From Theionarchaea archaeon (GTDB taxonomy: Archaea; Methanobacteriota_B; Thermococci; Methanofastidiosales; SZ-28-30), in contig JACVGT010000002.1 in NCBI GenBank assembly GCA_018992685.1, positions 1 to 64,000 on the forward strand: DNA of 64,000 nucleotides. The letters are read 5' to 3'. How positions within the stretch are numbered: position 1 is the stretch's first letter; each line of letters starts with the position of its first letter. This document shows positions 4,414-23,570 of the stretch, one piece after another. Below the pieces are notes generated by a model. That model did no database searches, was not told the origin of the DNA, and was given only the letters and a program-made list of their open reading frames with translations. The position numbers and the translations under genes were made by a program.

Positions 4414-5385
4414 TCAGCCCAGTTCACCGTTGAATAGATTGGTGCGCTTCACATGGACAACTGCAAGACCCACCATCACGACAATCCACCCTGAAAAGAG
4501 CAAATGCTGCTGAGGGCTGAAATCACCCATGAAATACTCCAAGAACATGATGACAATCCAAAGGTGAGCGAAGTCCATGACGTGAGAGTGCTTTTCAGGA
4601 TGGGCAAAGTAATAGAGTGAGACATTGGCGCAGATCAAAGCTGCTGTGATATACAAATTGAGGAGACCACAAAACACGATGCTAAATCCAAAAAAAATCA
4701 CCAAGAACAGAACTTTCAGTGTATTTGATGTATTCTGACCCAGTTTCTGGACAGTATGGGACGCACTGCTGATCCTGTCTACATGAAAATCACGTACTTG
4801 ATTATCAATTTGTCCTATTAGACTTATCAGCAAAAGAATGACCACACTTCCCCATACAAATGATTCAGCTGTGACCTTCACTCCAATGAAGTAGAGATAG
4901 CTTGCAGCAATGATCAGACCTTTCCACAAGAAGACAAAGATCCAGTCCCAGTATTTACGGTCTCTCAGCCTCACTGGTGGCGCAGAATAGAGCAGAGCAA
5001 GCACGTTGAGCAGTAGGATGGGTATGAAGACAGCCCGGGTTATAGAAGCTGCCAAGACGAGGCTGGCTCCAGGGCTGATATAGAGGACTGCGGTTCCAAT
5101 CTTTCGGCGTTCTTCTGTGCAGAATACGTTTCTCGTCCCTTTGTTGGGGTCTCTGGAATCATGAGGGGCATCAAAAAAATCGTTGACGACGAACATGAAG
5201 ACATTACCGCAGAATACACTGACCGCGAGAATGATTACCTGCAATGAGAACCCCTGCAGATAATTCCAGAAGAATCCCACCAAGATTAGACCAGATGAAA
5301 CCACAGCATACTCAAATCGCAGATCTTCTAGGAGCAGCAACACAGACTGGCTTCGGCCGAGAACCTGGTAGCTGGAAGTGGACAT
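4414..5385 (-). CDS. UbiA-family prenyltransferase-like membrane protein
   Basis: Polytopic UbiA-superfamily enzyme; these transfer a prenyl chain from a diphosphate donor to an aromatic or polar acceptor. The first aspartate-rich motif is visible as VNDFFDAPHDSRDPNKG (N-D-x-x-D-x-x-x-D) and a second as IGQIDNQVRDFHVDRIS, spaced as in the family. About eight or nine hydrophobic helices are apparent. I chose the ATG at 5385, one codon inside the GTG used by the ORF track; GGTGAT lies upstream of it. A possible TATA (GTTTAAATATC on the minus strand, near 5561-5571) is far upstream. The substrate is unknown. The tail-side U-rich tract suggests a monocistronic unit, divergent from tldD. Confidence 0.75.
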   Translation of the reverse strand: MSTSSYQVLGRSQSVLLLLEDLRFEYAVVSSGLILVGFFWNYLQGFSLQVIILAVSVFCGNVFMFVVNDFFDAPHDSRDPNKGTRNVFCTEERRKIGTAVLYISPGASLVLAASITRAVFIPILLLNVLALLYSAPPVRLRDRKYWDWIFVFLWKGLIIAASYLYFIGVKVTAESFVWGSVVILLLISLIGQIDNQVRDFHVDRISSASHTVQKLGQNTSNTLKVLFLVIFFGFSIVFCGLLNLYITAALICANVSLYYFAHPEKHSHVMDFAHLWIVIMFLEYFMGDFSPQQHLLFSGWIVVMVGLAVVHVKRTNLFNGELG

Positions 5386-5631
5386 CACACATCACCATCA
5401 GAGGGGGGATGGGTGATCCTGCTTGACAACGCATTCTTCTCACTGGAACTACTGGTACACACTGGGGGCATAGGCTGATGTTCAGACGTCGCTCCCCCGG
5501 ATGTCGAATCTCCCATAGAGTACATCTGCTTTGGATTCATTATCACAATCTGTAGAACAGATATTTAAACATTGCGTCATTAGAATTCAGAGGAGGTTGG
5601 AAAGGTGTCAGGAAAGAGCCTTTGACTCAAC

Positions 5632-15938: not shown

Positions 15939-16560
15939 TTATCTCCGCTTGAGTGCTACACCCAGCAATACGAGAGCAGATACAAAGGCAGTTCCAAGGC
16001 AGGTACCGCCACACTCACAACCACAATCTCCATCAGCTGGTGGAGACACACTGGGGTTGCTGATAATCTGCTGTACCGCAGCGTATGCATCTACACGACC
16101 CCATCCCCACAGGCAGTCTTTGTTGACATTGCCCTTGTCGATGGCAGTTGCACCCATGCAGTTCTTGACCTGCAATGGGGTGGCTGTACCACGGGCGTCC
16201 AGCATCAAGGCAGCAACACCTGCAATGTGCGGTGTGGCCATTGATGTACCAGACATTGAAACATCACTGCATGAGGTTCCGGAATCGGCAGCGTAGATAT
16301 ATACACCGGGAGCTGTGATATCGGGCTTTATTCTGTCGTCAGTAGTAGGACCTCTGGAAGAGAAGCTGGCAAGAGCATCTGACTTGTCAGAAGCACCAAC
16401 AGTGATGACATCTGTTGCATCACCAGGTGTGCTAATGGTGCAGCATGCTGAACCATCATTTCCAGCAGCACATACGACGACAACACCCTGACCTACAGCC
16501 CAGTTGCACTCCTTAGCCAATGCGCTAGTACCGTCGCCACCGCTTCCACCTAAAGACAGT
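15939..16560. repeat. Near-identical copy A of the subtilisin 3' half
   Basis: Aligns without gaps at an offset of 6081 bases to 22020-22641, with only scattered substitutions by eye. The 5' halves of the two genes are clearly diverged. This pattern suggests recent duplication or gene conversion of the 3' half. Confidence 0.8.
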
Positions 16561-17495
16561 GACTCCACATCTGCTCCCTGGGCAACTCCGAAGTCAATAC
16601 CCTGGATGATAGCACTGTCAGTGCATTGTCCGCCAGAAGTACATACTTTGGCCATCATGAGGTCTGCACCAGGTGCAACACCCTCAGGACTGTCTTCGCC
16701 AGCGGCAATGGATGAGCAGTGGGTACCGTGTCCATGGTCATCGTAAGGTGTGGATTGACTGTTGACGTAGTCTGCCCAGGCAATGATCTTCCCAGAGGGG
16801 AAGTCACAGTGGTTGGGGTCAATACCAGTGTCGATGATACATATTTTAATTCCAGTACCATCGTATCCAGCATACCAGCAGTCATCTGCGTTGATCAGCG
16901 GGATACTGTCAGATAAGGTGACGTAGGCGACACCGTCAGCTTCTACGAACTCAACCTCAGCGACCTCAGACAGAGCTTTGATGTTGGACACACGAATGTC
17001 CACAACAGCACCCATGCCACTGAGGAAGTTGTAGTAGACACTGCCGAATTTTTCCAGTTTGCTGGCAGCGTTGGGATTCTTGAACCATACTAGAGTTCTT
17101 ACAATGTCGTTTCCGTTCATGCCATTGATCTGGTCCTTGATTGACCACTTCATTTTGGCCACGTTGTTCGGTACGACGGCGACATATTCGTTAGAACCTA
17201 CTTCAGTTAAGTAGGCCATTGGTATCATGAAATCGGTATCACTGATCTGGACAATGGGAAGGTATTCTACATTGATTTCCTTCGTCACTCTGTTCAGAAC
17301 ACCAGAGCCAACCGATATGTACAGGAAGTCAGAATCTTCCCCTGTAATATCCATGTTGAGCTTCAGCAGGTCTCTTCCCTCGTATCCAAAAGTCTGGACG
17401 TGAATTACTCCCTTGGTGGGCTTAGCACTCACGGCAACTAGTGAGAAAACAAGCATACTTATTGTGGCAAGCACGAAGATCTTTCGACTCTTCAT
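15939..17495 (-). CDS. Exported subtilisin-like serine protease (S8), paralogue 1
   Basis: Secreted S8 endopeptidase of 518 residues. The ATG at 17495 is set by AAGGAGGTGAAGAA immediately upstream, and begins a clean signal peptide (MKSRKIFVLATISMLVFSLV). A pro-region of about 170 residues precedes the catalytic domain; the triad is visible as Asp in CIIDTGIDPNHCD, His in DDHGHGTHCSS and Ser in SGTSMATPHIAGV. Several Cys pairs suggest disulfides. The end has a Cys-rich linker CGCECGG, then TCLGT, a hydrophobic helix and KRR, a tripartite C-terminal tail shared with its paralogue and the M14 carboxypeptidase. Promoter and ribosome-binding site are also shared with the paralogue. Confidence 0.93.
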   Translation of the reverse strand: MKSRKIFVLATISMLVFSLVAVSAKPTKGVIHVQTFGYEGRDLLKLNMDITGEDSDFLYISVGSGVLNRVTKEINVEYLPIVQISDTDFMIPMAYLTEVGSNEYVAVVPNNVAKMKWSIKDQINGMNGNDIVRTLVWFKNPNAASKLEKFGSVYYNFLSGMGAVVDIRVSNIKALSEVAEVEFVEADGVAYVTLSDSIPLINADDCWYAGYDGTGIKICIIDTGIDPNHCDFPSGKIIAWADYVNSQSTPYDDHGHGTHCSSIAAGEDSPEGVAPGADLMMAKVCTSGGQCTDSAIIQGIDFGVAQGADVESLSLGGSGGDGTSALAKECNWAVGQGVVVVCAAGNDGSACCTISTPGDATDVITVGASDKSDALASFSSRGPTTDDRIKPDITAPGVYIYAADSGTSCSDVSMSGTSMATPHIAGVAALMLDARGTATPLQVKNCMGATAIDKGNVNKDCLWGWGRVDAYAAVQQIISNPSVSPPADGDCGCECGGTCLGTAFVSALVLLGVALKRR

Positions 17496-17562
17496 TTCTT
17501 CACCTCCTTTTTCCTTGTTATGCAGCTGCACAAGGCAGGCACACATTTCTGTTTGCCCTCAT

Positions 17563-17583
17563 GTATATAAATTTTTCGGTTAG
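17563..17583 (-). promoter_or_regulatory. TATA/BRE promoter of subtilisin 1
   Basis: Plus-strand TATATAAATTTTTCGGTTAG (TATA read on the minus strand, with CTAACCGAAAA as BRE) differs at one position of 20 from the element upstream of subtilisin 2. It predicts a leader of about 45 bases that carries the strong GGAGGTG. Confidence 0.7.
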
Positions 17584-17594
17584 ACAATTGTCTA
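17581..17594. promoter_or_regulatory. Perfect 14-bp palindrome abutting the subtilisin 1 BRE
   Basis: TAGACAATTGTCTA is fully self-complementary and lies immediately upstream of the BRE/TATA of subtilisin 1, where a bound regulator could block or recruit TFB. The promoter of the paralogue lacks it. Confidence 0.4.
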
Positions 17595-17747
17595 GTAGGT
17601 GATATTATAAGAAAAGGAGAAATATTTCTGACCTTCTAGGATTATGTACATTATCCCATGATAAGAAATAAGAATGAGAGCCGCTTTTCTATTGGGCAAT
17701 AACTGGATCGAGATTGCACATTCACTACAATCTGGGCGTGTGAACTC

Positions 17748-18983
17748 TCACCGAACTACCCACGACACGATGAGGACAATCAGGAAGGTCACAGCAGTCA
17801 GTATTCCAAAGAAAACCAGAACGGCAAAGAAGATCAGTGCACTCATTTGCGGGCTGCTCAGAGGATTGGAAAGGAATGCAAGGAGTAAAGCAGGAACCAC
17901 AAGATACTCATAGTCTTTGAGCCAGGACTCGACTCTGGTACCCCATCGTTCACTGTCCATTCTCACAGTGTTTATCATGAGAACACTTCCCGTATATCCC
18001 AGGAGAAGACCGAAGGCTGTGTAGCTATACGTGATGACCTGCAACTGGAATGCGCTGAGAGCTCCAGCATCCAGGATTCCAAGAAAATCAGCAATGTTCA
18101 GCCCAAAAAACATGAATATCTGGGGAAGCAGTCCAGGGACGTAGAACTTCCAGGTGTGCAGCTTCTCGAAAAGGGTTTTCTCGAAGAGGAGGAAAGCAAT
18201 GAATACTCCCAGGAATATGCCAGTGCACCCCGAACAGGTTACAAATTGCTTTCCTGCAAAGAAATAGGAAGAGGCTCCCCACTGGTCACAGAACACTCCA
18301 CCGAACCTGAACAGGTATTTGTACAATGCTTCTGTCCATTCAGGTGCTGTCACAATCCATGACGGCATTGAGGTCATATTACTGTATACCAGAACGTCCC
18401 AGATGACATGACTTATGGCAGGGGCCAGCAGATTCCGTATCTTCTCCATTTCTATGCTCAAGATCACTGATCCGATGCAACTGATGACCACAATCTCGGC
18501 CAAGGACAGGGGGGAACGCAGGGAATAGAATACTGACACTTTGTACAGTCCAAACAGTGCCGTAACAATGATGACCTTGCTCACAAATCCAAAGCTCTCG
18601 GACAGTTTCCCCTGAAGATATCCTCTGAAGAAGAACTCTTCCGCAGCAGCTACCACTGTAACAGCAGCCACAATAGATGCATTAAAAGCAATGGTGGACA
18701 GACTCAGTCTCTCATAGACTACATATATGAGGAACATTGCCAGTCCAAGCACCAATCCCACTCCAATGTTCAGGGGCAAATCCTGATTCTTGAGTTGAAA
18801 GTCGTCAAACCCTCTTAGGGTACTGCTCCACACATATAGGACACCCAAGAATAGTGCAATTGACACCAGTTGTGCCCAGCTATCTCCGGTGTAGTACAGA
18901 TAGATGACGGCGCACAGGCCGAGGGTGGCTATGATAGCCTGATTCGAAATCGAAATTGAACGTATCTTTTCAGTCACATTCAT
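17748..18983 (-). CDS. CPBP-family intramembrane protease fused to a DUF2085-like membrane domain
   Basis: Polytopic membrane protein of 411 residues. The N-terminal half is CPBP/Rce1-like: motif 1 is EEFFFRGYL, motif 3 is SHVIWDVL. The usual second-motif histidine is not obvious; FGLYK occupies that place, so activity is not guaranteed. The C-terminal half resembles DUF2085 membrane proteins: an FCDQ segment, FVTCSGCTGIFLGVF, a conserved NIADFLG helix and a GLLLGYTGS helix. I do not know of this fusion. The ATG at 18983 has GGAGGAATATC upstream and overlaps the UbiA stop as ATGA, so the two are translationally coupled. It lies between two genes for hydrolases bearing the same Cys-containing tail. 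CPBP proteases are known to process MYXO-CTERM-type tails, which suggests but does not prove that role here. Confidence 0.82.
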   Translation of the reverse strand: MNVTEKIRSISISNQAIIATLGLCAVIYLYYTGDSWAQLVSIALFLGVLYVWSSTLRGFDDFQLKNQDLPLNIGVGLVLGLAMFLIYVVYERLSLSTIAFNASIVAAVTVVAAAEEFFFRGYLQGKLSESFGFVSKVIIVTALFGLYKVSVFYSLRSPLSLAEIVVISCIGSVILSIEMEKIRNLLAPAISHVIWDVLVYSNMTSMPSWIVTAPEWTEALYKYLFRFGGVFCDQWGASSYFFAGKQFVTCSGCTGIFLGVFIAFLLFEKTLFEKLHTWKFYVPGLLPQIFMFFGLNIADFLGILDAGALSAFQLQVITYSYTAFGLLLGYTGSVLMINTVRMDSERWGTRVESWLKDYEYLVVPALLLAFLSNPLSSPQMSALIFFAVLVFFGILTAVTFLIVLIVSWVVR

Positions 18984-19864
18984 GATATTCCTCCTGCATA
19001 GGTGATTCCTGAGAGCAGAATGCTTGCTGTGCAAAAAAAGAAGCAGTTTATATAAGCTTTTTCATAAGAGTTGGTGTTGCCCATGAGTATGTGGATGTAG
19101 GCCATCCAGGGCACCAGGCCCAGATATACGAGGAACCATGGAGAGAATAACCCTGCAACAGCCAGTATTGGAAATCCCACCACAGGCACAGCAAGGCCCC
19201 CCATGACCACAGCGCGCGATGTGTTGATCCCCATGGTGAGAGGAACAGTGTCCACGTCAAGAGCGTCATCACCTTTGAGATCAATGAAATCTTTGCTGAT
19301 ACTGGCCCCTGCGGTTTGTGCAGTGAGAAGGGCAGCAATGATCATAATATCAGAATTCAGTGAGGAGTAGATGTCAAACCCACCGACGAGAGGTATCAAA
19401 ACATACCCAGCTGCAATTGCCAGCGGTGCAGCCGCACCACGTGCCTTTATGCGGGTTGGCCGGATGGAGTAGGTTGTTGCCAAGATGAGACCTGCTATCA
19501 CAAAGAGGGAACGGGTCAGGTCGAGGAACACTATTGACAAGAGGAGACCGCCCACAAAAAGGAATGCGGAAAAGTATAAAACTGTCTCTTTCTTTACGAT
19601 GCCTTTGGGTATTGCCCTATCAGGACGTGTAATCCTGTCGATTCTGTAATCTGTGTATGCATTGAGGCTGTTGGCGTACCCCAGTATGAACACAGGGAAT
19701 AAAACGGCAATAAAGACAATGTCCTGGAGAGGAGGTATTCCCCGTAACGCAATCATCATTCCGGCCAGGATCGTGACGATTACAGAAACCCAGGTCATAG
19801 GGCGCATGGTTCGAATAAGTGCGACTGCTTTCGTAATCATGCTATGTGGAACCCCAGCCTCCAT
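18980..19864 (-). CDS. UbiA-family prenyltransferase, digeranylgeranylglyceryl phosphate synthase-like
   Basis: Membrane prenyltransferase resembling archaeal (S)-2,3-di-O-geranylgeranylglyceryl phosphate synthase, which adds the second isoprenoid chain of archaeal lipids. The first Asp motif and its basic tail, YTDYRIDRITRPDRAIPKG, and the second motif KDFIDLKGDDALDVDTVPL closely follow that subfamily, where the N-D-x-x-D-x-x-I-D-R-I-N-R-P-x-R-P-I-P-S-G pattern is typical. About eight or nine helices. Start uncertain between 19864 and 19840; a TATA at 19907-19917 permits either. The stop overlaps the CPBP protease start. The pairing may link lipid synthesis to handling of membrane-anchored exported proteins; that link is inference. 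Confidence 0.85.
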   Translation of the reverse strand: MEAGVPHSMITKAVALIRTMRPMTWVSVIVTILAGMMIALRGIPPLQDIVFIAVLFPVFILGYANSLNAYTDYRIDRITRPDRAIPKGIVKKETVLYFSAFLFVGGLLLSIVFLDLTRSLFVIAGLILATTYSIRPTRIKARGAAAPLAIAAGYVLIPLVGGFDIYSSLNSDIMIIAALLTAQTAGASISKDFIDLKGDDALDVDTVPLTMGINTSRAVVMGGLAVPVVGFPILAVAGLFSPWFLVYLGLVPWMAYIHILMGNTNSYEKAYINCFFFCTASILLSGITYAGGIS

Positions 19865-19906
19865 AAAAGGTTTTCGATATGAAAGAGATTGACCCAGGTG
19901 TGTGAT

Positions 19907-19917
19907 AGTATATAAGA
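19907..19917 (-). promoter_or_regulatory. TATA box for the UbiA-CPBP operon
   Basis: The minus strand reads CTTATATAC within this segment, predicting transcription from about 19886, upstream of both possible UbiA starts. Confidence 0.5.
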
Positions 19918-20010
19918 GGTACGTGATTTGATGACTGGTACTTTCTAACTTCTGAAGAAGAAGACCATGAATACCCGAAAAATCTTCAGGCTAGATTCGG
20001 GAAAGGTAGG

Positions 20011-20031
20011 AGAAAAAGAAAAAGGAAATAA
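20011..20031 (-). terminator. U-rich terminator of the carboxypeptidase gene
   Basis: Plus-strand AGAAAAAGAAAAAGGAAATAA lies about 15-35 bases past the stop of the minus-strand M14 gene and would be U-rich in its transcript. Confidence 0.45.
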
Positions 20032-20044
20032 GAGAGAAGTTGAC

Positions 20045-21901
20045 CTATCTCTTTCTGAACACTTCTACAGAACCAAAGAGCAGCAGTATTCCCAGGAGGA
20101 CTGTTCCAAGGCAGCTTCCGCTGTTATCAACAGTCACAGTTATTGTATCGTCATCCACCAACTGACTGCTGGCATTGTATCCTTCAGCCTTCACCGTGTG
20201 GCTGGCGTCAGAGTACTGGGTTGTGTCCCAGCTCCACGAGAATGGGGATGTACTGTCTGTGGCCACGTTCGTGCCGTCTATGTAAAACTTGACGGATGTG
20301 ACTTCTGTGCTGGTGTCTACGGTGACGCTAACTGTGCCAGAAACGGTCTGGCCCTGCGAGGGGTTGGTTATAGAGACTGCTGGAATGACCTTGTATGGAT
20401 TGTCTGCGCAGTCGATAAAGTAGAGGGCACCTTGGTAGTTGTTTGCACACAGTGTGGGCAGCACTGAAGGCGGTGGGTAGAATTCTCCTCCCTCCAACTC
20501 AACTGTGAAGGAGAAGCACGGCATAGCGTCATTCTGTGTTACTCCGTAACTCCAGTCATCAGTAGTCCCAGAAGCCAGGTACAAATCTGCAGACTGCTGA
20601 GCTGTGTATCCAACGTAGCTAGCATACTTGGCACCCATGGTCTCGTGAACCTTTCGGTCGCTTGCATCTGAAATAGCATCATAAGTGTAACCCCACGGCC
20701 AGAGTACTAGCTCGCCGTAAGAGTGGTAGGTCAGTAGCACATTGATATCAGGATGAGCATTGAAGAAGTCCCTTACAACTGCCGTCTCGGGAGCGTCAAA
20801 GGCCTCATACCCCCGGAAGGTGTCACTGGTGCAGTAGCCTGAAGAGCCGCTTCCACCCCATCCGTAGGAGTAGTTTCTGTTCAGATCAGTCCCAATGCCA
20901 CCATCGCATGGCTGTCTGTTCTTTCTCCAGCTGAGTCCGCTGCCTGAGTAGCCACCAGAGTCATCATATACTTTACCATCTGGATTGATGATGGGCACAA
21001 TGTAGATTTCTCTGTTATTCACCAGATCAGTGATTGTCTGATTCGAACCGTAGTTGTCAGTCAGCTGATTTATGATGTACATGGCAACTTCTACTGTAGC
21101 ACATTCTCTTGCGTGGTGCAGGGCACAGAAGAAGATCTCGGCTTCAGATTCTTCAGTTGCAACGTTGTCTGAAATTTTGAGGTATGGGATGGTTCTGCCT
21201 TCATATGAAGTCCCGAGAGAATATACTTTGGCAATGGACGAGTGATCCGATTCAATCTGACTGAGTTCACTGACGACTTCAGCGTAGGTGTGGTACTCAT
21301 CTTCTATTACCAAGATCGACGGGCTGTCCACCACCTCAACGGTAAACCCAGAGAGGCAGAGTGCTATCAGACCTTCATAGGATACTAGAACATTCATGTA
21401 TCCCTCTTTAAGGTTCACTCCTGCAACGTCTACACCACTGATTGCCACCAGGGTTCTCAGGTACTTGTTGTTGGCGTACACTTTGACTTGAAGCTGCTCT
21501 GCTCCAATGTATTGATCGAACTCGGATGTGTCAATTTCCTTCTTCAGCACTGAGTGGGGCAGTTTGATCACGTAATCATTGAGTCCTTTCTGTTTGAGAT
21601 CACTCTTGGCGATAGTCACTACAAAATAGCCTTGTCCAACTCCGGTGACTGTCAAATCAACGTATTTGACAGCTGAAGCTATGGCAAAATGATACTGGAA
21701 CATTGCCATGTCCAGGTCAGTGAACTTACAGGTGATTGTCTTTTTGTCTTCCGAAATCTTTTCCAGTTGCAGGACGACAATATCCTCTTTTTCTCCTGCA
21801 ATCTGAACGTGGACGGTAACTGTGTTTCCGAGTCCAGTGGCTGCTGCAGATAAAGCGAGTATAGCTGTTAGGAATACTAGAGCTCCGATTTTACCTTTCA
21901 T
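20045..21901 (-). CDS. Exported zinc carboxypeptidase (M14) with C-terminal tail
   Basis: Extracellular metallocarboxypeptidase of 618 residues. The ATG at 21901 follows AAGGAGGTGAAAGAC and begins a signal peptide (MKGKIGALVFLTAILALSAA). A pro-region of about 190 residues is followed by the catalytic domain: zinc motif HHARECATVE (H-x-x-E), the Arg/Asn substrate-binding segment TDLNRNYSYGW, the third zinc ligand in LLTYHSYGELVLWPW and the general-base Glu in FTVELEGG. An Ig-like domain (SVTVDTSTEVTSVKFYIDG) follows, then SCLGT, a hydrophobic helix and RKR, the same tail form as in the two subtilisins. The gene lies between subtilisin 2 and the UbiA-CPBP pair, all on the minus strand. Confidence 0.93.
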   Translation of the reverse strand: MKGKIGALVFLTAILALSAAATGLGNTVTVHVQIAGEKEDIVVLQLEKISEDKKTITCKFTDLDMAMFQYHFAIASAVKYVDLTVTGVGQGYFVVTIAKSDLKQKGLNDYVIKLPHSVLKKEIDTSEFDQYIGAEQLQVKVYANNKYLRTLVAISGVDVAGVNLKEGYMNVLVSYEGLIALCLSGFTVEVVDSPSILVIEDEYHTYAEVVSELSQIESDHSSIAKVYSLGTSYEGRTIPYLKISDNVATEESEAEIFFCALHHARECATVEVAMYIINQLTDNYGSNQTITDLVNNREIYIVPIINPDGKVYDDSGGYSGSGLSWRKNRQPCDGGIGTDLNRNYSYGWGGSGSSGYCTSDTFRGYEAFDAPETAVVRDFFNAHPDINVLLTYHSYGELVLWPWGYTYDAISDASDRKVHETMGAKYASYVGYTAQQSADLYLASGTTDDWSYGVTQNDAMPCFSFTVELEGGEFYPPPSVLPTLCANNYQGALYFIDCADNPYKVIPAVSITNPSQGQTVSGTVSVTVDTSTEVTSVKFYIDGTNVATDSTSPFSWSWDTTQYSDASHTVKAEGYNASSQLVDDDTITVTVDNSGSCLGTVLLGILLLFGSVEVFRKR

Positions 21902-21925
21902 GTCTTTCACCTCCTTTTGATTTGT

Positions 21926-21945
21926 CTCATTAGTGAGCTAATGAG
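21926..21945. promoter_or_regulatory. Inverted repeat in the carboxypeptidase 5' region
   Basis: CTCATTAGTGAGCTAATGAG has two perfect 8-base arms around a 4-base spacer, 25-44 bases upstream of the ATG. It could be a DNA operator or an mRNA hairpin near the ribosome-binding site. No strong TATA is seen in its vicinity. Confidence 0.4.
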
Positions 21946-21984
21946 CGTGATGCATGATATGATACGGTATGATGTGGTGAGCGT

Positions 21985-22010
21985 AAAAGAGAAATAAAAA
22001 AGAAAAAAAG
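21985..22010 (-). terminator. U-rich terminator of subtilisin gene 2
   Basis: Plus-strand AAAGAGAAATAAAAAAGAAAAA lies just past the stop at 22020 on the minus strand, giving dense U-runs in the transcript. Confidence 0.55.
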
Positions 22011-22019
22011 ATGAATGAT

Positions 22020-22641
22020 TTATCTCCGCTTGAGTGCTACACCCAGCAATACGAGAGCAGATACAAAGGCAGTTCCAAGGCAGGTACCGCCACACTCACA
22101 ACCACAATCTCCATCAGCTGGTGGAGACACACTGGGGTTGCTGATGATCTGCTGTACCGCAGCGTATGCATCTACACGGCCCCATCCCCACAGGCAGTCT
22201 TTGTTGACATTGCCCTTGTCGATGGCAGTTGCACCCATGCAGTTCTTGACCTGCAACGGGGTGGCTGTACCACGGGCATCCAGCATCAAGGCAGCAACAC
22301 CTGCAATGTGCGGTGTGGCCATTGAAGTACCAGACATGGCAACATCACTGCATGAGGTTCCTGCATCGGCAGCGTAGATTGACACACCAGGAGCTGTGAT
22401 GTCGGGCTTTATCCTGTCGTCAGTGGTAGGACCTCTGGAAGAGAAGCTGGCAAGAGCATCTGACTTGTCAGAAGCACCAACAGTGATGACATCTGTTGCA
22501 TCACCAGGTGTGCTAATGGTGCAGCAAGTTGAACCATCATTTCCAGCAGCACAAGCAACGACAGCGCCCTGACCTACAGCCCAGTTGCACTCCTGAGCCA
22601 AGGTGCTGGTACCGTCGCCACCGCTTCCACCTAAGGACAGA
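22020..22641. repeat. Near-identical copy B of the subtilisin 3' half
   Basis: Partner of 15939-16560 at a constant offset of 6081 bases, covering the region after the catalytic His up to the stop codon. It encodes identical C-terminal tails. Confidence 0.8.
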
Positions 22642-23570
22642 GACAATACATCTGCTCCCTGAGCGACTGCCCAGTCAATACCCTGGACGATAGCAGTTGT
22701 GGTACCGGACCCGGAAGAGTTCAGCACCTTTGCACCCATCAATGAAGCAGCCTTGGCTACACCATATGGTGATGCAGCACCTGCAGCAATGGATGCGCAG
22801 TGAGTACCGTGTCCATGGTCATCGTAGGCTGTGGTCTTGCTGTTGACATAGTCCACGAATTTCACAATCTTCCCAGAGGGGAAGTCACAGTGGTTGGGGT
22901 CAATACCAGTGTCAATGATGCAGATCTTAATTCCAGCACCATCGTATCCGGCATTCCAGCAGTCATCTGCGTTGATCAGAGGTACACTGGAAGACAGTGT
23001 TGCGTAGACAATGGCGTCATCTTCCAGGAACAGAATTCCAGCATCCTCAGACAGTGCCTTGATGTTGGAAACAGCGATGGTCATGGATGCTCCCAGTCCA
23101 CTGGCAAACTCGTAGGTGACTGTACCGAATTTGGTGAGGTCGACAGCTCCGCCCTTGTACATAACCATGATGTCCATCAGATCATTGCCGTTCTTTCCAG
23201 CGATCTTGTCCTTCAAGTTCCACTTGATCTTGGTGACATCGTTGGGGACGACAGCGACGAATTCATTGTCACCCACCTCAGTCAGATATGCTTTGGGGAT
23301 GCCAAAGGTCGTCTCATTGATCTGGACAATGGGCAGCTTGTCAACGTTGATCTCCTTCTCGATTCTGTTGAGCATTCCGGGGTTGACGTTAACATAAATG
23401 TAGCCGGAGTCTTCACCAGTGATGTCAACGTTGAGTTTCAGAACGTCTCTTCCCTCAAATCCGAAAGTTTGAACGTGAATTGTTGCGTTGGTGGGCTTAG
23501 CACTAACAGCAATCAGTGAGAAAACAAGCATAGCCACTGTAGCAAGCACAAATACCTTTCGCGTTTTCAT
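22020..23570 (-). CDS. Exported subtilisin-like serine protease (S8), paralogue 2
   Basis: 516-residue secreted S8 protease paralogous to the gene at 15939. Signal peptide MKTRKVFVLATVAMLVFSLI, pro-region to about residue 195, then triad Asp220 (CIIDTGIDPNHCD), His254 (DDHGHGTHCAS) and Ser near 430 (SGTSMATPH). The last 200 or so residues are nearly identical to paralogue 1, including the SPPADGDCGCECGG linker and the TCLGT/hydrophobic/KRR tail. The pro-region and early catalytic domain differ at many positions. Start set by AAAGGAGGTGAAAAAGA. The two proteases probably differ in activation or specificity rather than in how they are anchored. Confidence 0.93.
   Translation of the reverse strand: MKTRKVFVLATVAMLVFSLIAVSAKPTNATIHVQTFGFEGRDVLKLNVDITGEDSGYIYVNVNPGMLNRIEKEINVDKLPIVQINETTFGIPKAYLTEVGDNEFVAVVPNDVTKIKWNLKDKIAGKNGNDLMDIMVMYKGGAVDLTKFGTVTYEFASGLGASMTIAVSNIKALSEDAGILFLEDDAIVYATLSSSVPLINADDCWNAGYDGAGIKICIIDTGIDPNHCDFPSGKIVKFVDYVNSKTTAYDDHGHGTHCASIAAGAASPYGVAKAASLMGAKVLNSSGSGTTTAIVQGIDWAVAQGADVLSLSLGGSGGDGTSTLAQECNWAVGQGAVVACAAGNDGSTCCTISTPGDATDVITVGASDKSDALASFSSRGPTTDDRIKPDITAPGVSIYAADAGTSCSDVAMSGTSMATPHIAGVAALMLDARGTATPLQVKNCMGATAIDKGNVNKDCLWGWGRVDAYAAVQQIISNPSVSPPADGDCGCECGGTCLGTAFVSALVLLGVALKRR

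Follow-up and report, generated by a model that had tools for sequence, protein, structure and literature searches.

Several described C-terminal sorting signals contain a cysteine. The CPBP protease MrtX cleaves proteins with a MYXO-CTERM tail, a step that requires conserved Cys residues; lipidation of the Cys has been proposed, the responsible enzyme being unknown (PMC11980579). For CGP-CTERM, a lipid modification has been suggested and ABC binding proteins are among the carriers (PMC4870337), and in haloarchaea, archaeosortases tether C termini to lipid (PMC12186497). The stretch of 64,000 nucleotides analysed here (the window), from a Theionarchaea archaeon, encodes three exported hydrolases with a C-terminal tail of comparable design, together with a CPBP-DUF2085 fusion protein and a UbiA-family prenyltransferase. 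In this tail, a C[L/A/T]GT motif is followed by a short hydrophobic helix and then by basic residues, and is preceded by a linker in which Gly, Ser, Pro, Glu or Cys abound. An earlier note on this DNA had named the motif CLGT; the motif was found, its definition had to be widened to C[L/A/T]GT, and the short name is kept here. By its scores, the CLGT tail belongs to neither CGP-CTERM nor MYXO-CTERM and is best described as a further class of Cys-containing CTERM signal, with a C-terminal tripartite design (one Cys-less exception, on a protein with a lipobox) and many unrelated exported carriers.

All three carrier genes in the window are on the minus strand. An exported S8 subtilisin (15939..17495; 518 aa from MKSRKIF..., with a signal peptide; Pfam Peptidase_S8, 1.4e-57) ends in ...GGTCLGTAFVSALVLLGVALKRR (CLGTAFVSALVLLGVALKRR; 15942..16001). 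A second exported S8 subtilisin of 516 aa (22020..23570; identified by Pfam scan, reading of the N terminus and tail, and gene comparison) has its copy of this tail at 22023..22082. The third carrier, an exported M14 carboxypeptidase with a Big_7 domain (20045..21901; Peptidase_M14, 1.9e-66; Big_7, 5.7e-17), ends in ...SGSCLGTVLLGILLLFGSVEVFRKR (CLGTVLLGILLLFGSVEVFRKR; 20048..20113). Each tail was located at these positions and matched by the tail profile. The two subtilisin genes were 95–100% identical in their 3' thirds and 59–86% identical over the remainder; either gene conversion or partial duplication may explain the matching 3' thirds and diverged 5' parts. The three hydrolases that the earlier note had grouped by a common tail are thus all present, but count as two independent tails, not three, because these 3' thirds are nearly identical. 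The uncharged stretch following the tail Cys was 15–18 residues long, compared with 19–29 residues for most other single-pass C-terminal anchors at the same loci. As a plain DNA pattern, CLGT was not over-represented (11 occurrences versus 12 in the reversed control); the signal resides in the in-frame, C-terminal position of the motif rather than in raw pattern counts.

The window is part of contig 4 in an archaeal metagenome-assembled genome (MAG; G000) of 3.03 Mb, hereafter the own genome, whose sole congener among the genomes searched was the Theionarchaea MAG JACVGW01 of isolate SZ_28-30 (G001). The remaining members of the class appear to be Thermococcales, to judge by their genome size and their CGP-CTERM and MrtA content. 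A profile of 24 positions, built from six tails and then from nineteen, was searched over the source genome and its relatives, as the earlier note had suggested, and traced the tail far beyond the window. At a threshold of E 0.001, the own genome gave 17 matches (the best with E 6e-11) and the congener nine; the phylum's other 113 genomes gave none. Among the genomes searched, the tail is restricted to the genus. Reading the loci by hand gave 19 Cys tails (one of them decayed) and one Cys-less tail in the own genome, and 10 Cys tails in the congener; these counts, which combine profile searches, pattern searches and hand reading, are a lower bound.

The carriers of the 19 Cys tails span at least seven unrelated families, across which the C, G and T of the motif were strict and the helices variable. 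They comprise six S8 subtilisins, one M14 and two C25 peptidases, four peptide-binding proteins of the family SBP_bac_5 (SBPs), two TPR proteins, one Big_7, one PD40 and one TSP3 protein, and one unknown. For several subtilisins, one member of the TPR pair and the other paralogues, the family was assigned from shared sequence instead of an individual scan. An N-terminal signal peptide was present in nearly all carriers; the few frames without one are apparently truncated or have an uncertain start (e.g. contig 7:43356, contig 26:5552 and one on contig 86 of the congener). The decayed tail, CLGTLFIALMKTNHLFRRE, was found on an SBP (L212 1324-3312) and probably arose by frameshift or recombination at the 3' end. 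With proteases and peptide-binding proteins in the majority, the carriers resemble a surface kit for protein degradation. The earlier note's view that the tail is specific held: it is a recurrent Cys-containing tripartite signal in a genome that also encodes plain C-terminal anchors without it.

The role of the tail Cys is illuminated by a natural variant. An SBP on contig 3 ends in the Cys-less tail GLGTLFVALLLVGGIVLRIKRK (GLGT), and the same protein has an N-terminal lipobox, LVTLLAGC; this SBP was the only tail carrier in the own genome without a tail Cys and the only one with a lipobox. Its orthologue in the congener shows the same combination of an LLAGC lipobox and a GLGT tail (the pair being L177 2188-3954 and L179 2213-3856, both on the minus strand). 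That the Cys is lost where another lipid anchor is predicted suggests that the Cys is where the protein is lipid-anchored or processed; the variant is suggestive, not proof, and fits lipid anchoring at the Cys. As in the CLGT tail, the Cys of archaeal lipobox lipoproteins is expected to bear a membrane lipid on the outer face, but it is N-terminal whereas that of the CLGT tail is C-terminal, and the two are apparently mutually exclusive here. We judge it probable that the tail is a Cys-dependent sorting or anchoring signal.

Of the described systems, CGP-CTERM (TIGR04288) with MrtA (NF040590) of the Thermococcales is similar in many respects: it belongs to the same phylum, its tail is tripartite (e.g. 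GGICGPAALVGLAVLPLLLRRRRK), with a short helix that has the Cys at its outer edge and with basic residues to close, ABC binding proteins are among its carriers and a CPBP-type enzyme is predicted. The link between CGP-CTERM and MrtA is reportedly due to in silico work by Haft. TIGR04288 found 10–12 carriers in each of five Thermococcales-like genomes, and MrtA scored 269–311 bits against NF040590 in the Thermococcales control genomes. In contrast, the Theionarchaeal signature is C[L/A/T]GT instead of CGP, TIGR04288 had no match in either Theionarchaeal genome at E up to 1, and none of the CPBP proteins of the own genome reached the MrtA cut-off of 200. MrtA-like CPBP proteins scoring 178–185 bits against this cut-off occur in other families of the order (L067 1468-2085, L071 1150-1782); no CGP-CTERM tails were found in the order members searched.

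MYXO-CTERM (MrtX/MrtC/MrtP) shares with CLGT the invariant Cys, the short helix, the basic end and extracellular hydrolases as substrates. It differs in its signature; the CLGT tail is archaeal, the candidate CPBP protein of the window is fused to DUF2085 and has Lys in motif 2, and all scores fall below the cut-offs. The subtilisin tail reached at best 13.9 bits against TIGR03382 (cut-off 15.85), and none of the NCBIfam models reached its cut-off with the CLGT tail. CaaX processing is also reminiscent of this locus, where a Cys-a-a-X-like CLGT is found with an adjacent Rce1-family protein and prenyltransferase. However, CLGT is followed by a helix and the protein is exported, whereas CaaX proteins are cytoplasmic. 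UbiA is unrelated to the protein farnesyl- or geranylgeranyltransferases of CaaX processing.

We favour, by a modest degree, a scheme in which CLGT serves Theionarchaea as a lineage-specific C-terminal sorting signal with a Cys, directing lipidation and CPBP cleavage. After Sec export, the short hydrophobic helix would keep the protein in the membrane with the Cys at the outer face. The Cys would gain a membrane lipid, and a CPBP-type intramembrane endopeptidase would cut just after the lipidated Cys; the enzyme or peptide-binding protein would then remain at the surface on its lipid anchor. Cleavage by one of the genome's own CPBP proteins seems reasonably likely. The CPBP-DUF2085 protein of the window is the leading candidate for this step, a tentative choice, and the coupled UbiA protein may supply or attach the lipid, which is the weakest step. 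A Cys-containing C-terminal sorting signal is hereby added for an uncultured archaeal class, along with the proteins that bear it, and the natural Cys-loss variant and the CPBP-coupled prenyltransferase provide a concrete candidate for lipidation and a short list of genes.

The CPBP-DUF2085 gene (17748..18983, minus strand; Pfam, NCBIfam and alignment) encodes 411 aa from an ATG that overlaps the UbiA stop codon. The fusion described by the earlier note was borne out by matches to the Rce1-like PF02517 (5e-13, 49.6 bits; cut-off 22.4) and to DUF2085 (26.3 bits; cut-off 25). In the DUF2085 part (18120..18290, minus strand), C232, C250 and C253 have been kept; the CHQ and CxRCT motifs have lost their His and Arg. 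Of the family motifs EExxxR, FxxxH and HxxxN/D, the first and third are kept as EEFFFR and HVIWD (E115, E116 and R120; H192 and D196), while FGLYK stands where the family has FxxxH, with K148 in place of the motif-2 His. Within PF02517 the protein is diverged. Among NCBIfam models, Mrt_core matched best (NF040914; 32 bits, cut-off 100), and weak matches to the MrtP and MrtX models were likewise all under cut-off. A search of the PDB with the CPBP profile returned no meaningful match.

The UbiA-family gene (18980..19864, minus strand; Pfam 5.7e-30; motifs NAYTDYRID and DLKGD intact) ends in ATCATGA, in which the CPBP start codon overlaps its stop codon, as the translational coupling proposed earlier implies. 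The link is kept in the congener, where the C terminus of UbiA directly precedes the CPBP gene at a contig end, and UbiA, CPBP and a CLGT subtilisin are grouped together in both genomes. Membership of the UbiA family stood, but the label 'archaeal-lipid-type' was imprecise, since the best scores were obtained against chlorophyll-synthase models, all far below cut-off. Against PRK12882, PRK12883 and PRK12884 the protein scored 90.6, 70.8 and 94.1 bits (cut-offs 296, 353 and 269) and did not match as a DGGGP synthase equivalog; paralogues on contigs 21 and 9, with 260 and 244 bits against PRK12882, are better candidates for this enzyme. We regard it as improbable that UbiA is the enzyme that lipidates the tail Cys, and equally doubtful is the two-step version, in which UbiA would place a prenyl-derived or archaeol lipid on the Cys and the coupled CPBP-DUF2085 protein would then cut after it. 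If true, CaaX processing would have a prokaryotic counterpart that acts outside the cell, a lipidating enzyme would be known for the first time in a Cys-CTERM system and, to our knowledge, UbiA enzymes would have their first protein substrate. A second UbiA-family gene is present in the window (4414-5391, minus strand; 79% ortholog in the congener). In the congener, a UbiA domain also occurs within an open frame of 907 residues (L176 446-3169), possibly a fusion or a read-through of two genes.

Several points weigh against the lipidation and cleavage scheme. Two genomes of one genus amount to a single evolutionary case. The exclusion of lipobox and tail Cys is likewise a single event, with a chance of about 1 in 20 (computed as 0.048, from a table that included one surplus Cys tail). 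The window CPBP and its orthologue in the congener both have Lys where motif 2 calls for His, and an AlphaFold2 prediction of CPBP-DUF2085 from two sequences gave no usable active-site model (predicted local distance difference test score, pLDDT, 36.7). All seven CPBP genes of the own genome have the same genus-restricted distribution. The placement of CPBP near CLGT genes was weakly significant over the seven CPBPs (p 0.02-0.07): in a test that kept the real clustering of CLGT genes and assumed a length of 130 kb for contig 4, finding three tails within 5 kb of a single CPBP gene had p 0.003, which rose to 0.02 when any of the seven genes was allowed and to 0.07 when the two subtilisins were counted once. 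The window UbiA is one of eight UbiA genes in the own genome, and mapping of both UbiA and MrtA, done in two Thermococcales genomes, showed them not to be neighbours. UbiA active sites are normally cytoplasmic, whereas the tail Cys is expected outside. Finally, the exosortase/archaeosortase family PF09721 had no match in either genome, a result in favour of the scheme but weak evidence, as the Haloferax control was also silent.

This last result bears on processing of the tail by an archaeosortase-like cysteine transpeptidase, a very unlikely explanation in spite of a tripartite design like that of PGF-CTERM, given the lack of PF09721 matches. Archaeosortase signals also do not need an invariant Cys, and that of the CLGT tail is invariant. 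Alternatively, the tail might be a plain C-terminal transmembrane anchor, with CLGT spread by duplication and domain shuffling and neither cleavage nor lipid involved. Several carriers are indeed paralogous (the six subtilisins and the four SBPs), the 3' ends of the window subtilisins show conversion, and ordinary anchors are present in the same genome. Yet duplication of an anchor does not sit well with a strict C, G and T next to variable helices in unrelated families, with the shortness of the tail helix or with a Cys that is lost only together with the presence of a lipobox, and a pair of orthologous SBPs with an ordinary anchor (L210, L211) has a longer helix and no Cys. We consider this explanation unlikely.

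A Cys-containing sorting signal could also be served by a different CPBP, most likely that of contig 12 (G000:C12:8175-9251), the window protein being otherwise engaged or a pseudoprotease. The EExxxR, FxxxH and HxxxN motifs of the contig-12 protein are all intact, while the window CPBP has the Lys in motif 2. The contig-12 protein is the most MrtA-like of the own CPBPs (weak full-length similarity, 30.7 bits), has BLAST matches to MrtA proteins of other genomes and has an orthologue in the congener. However, no CLGT gene was found within the 18 kb and 16 kb examined around it in the two genomes, and its best NCBIfam match was an ABC-permease/CPBP model; we regard its involvement as rather unlikely, if slightly less so than a plain anchor. 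BLAST against the CPBP regions of relatives gave close matches for all seven CPBPs only in the congener, with six clear orthologues; the contig-35 protein matched the contig-14 orthologue at 31%. The earlier note had tied the tails to the CPBP-DUF2085 gene, and none was found without it in the 113 other genomes of the phylum, but co-occurrence has no power here and cannot single out one CPBP, because outside the genus none of the seven has a close relative in the genomes sampled.

CPBP domains were also observed in frame with long exported repeat regions of 750–800 aa (L087 7968-9221, L088 5498-7759, L094 5949-8354), which resemble FG-GAP/VCBS propellers. In the L088 copy, Asn replaces the motif-2 His, and a CLGT PD40 protein is located approximately 5 kb away from both the L087 copy and the L094 copy.

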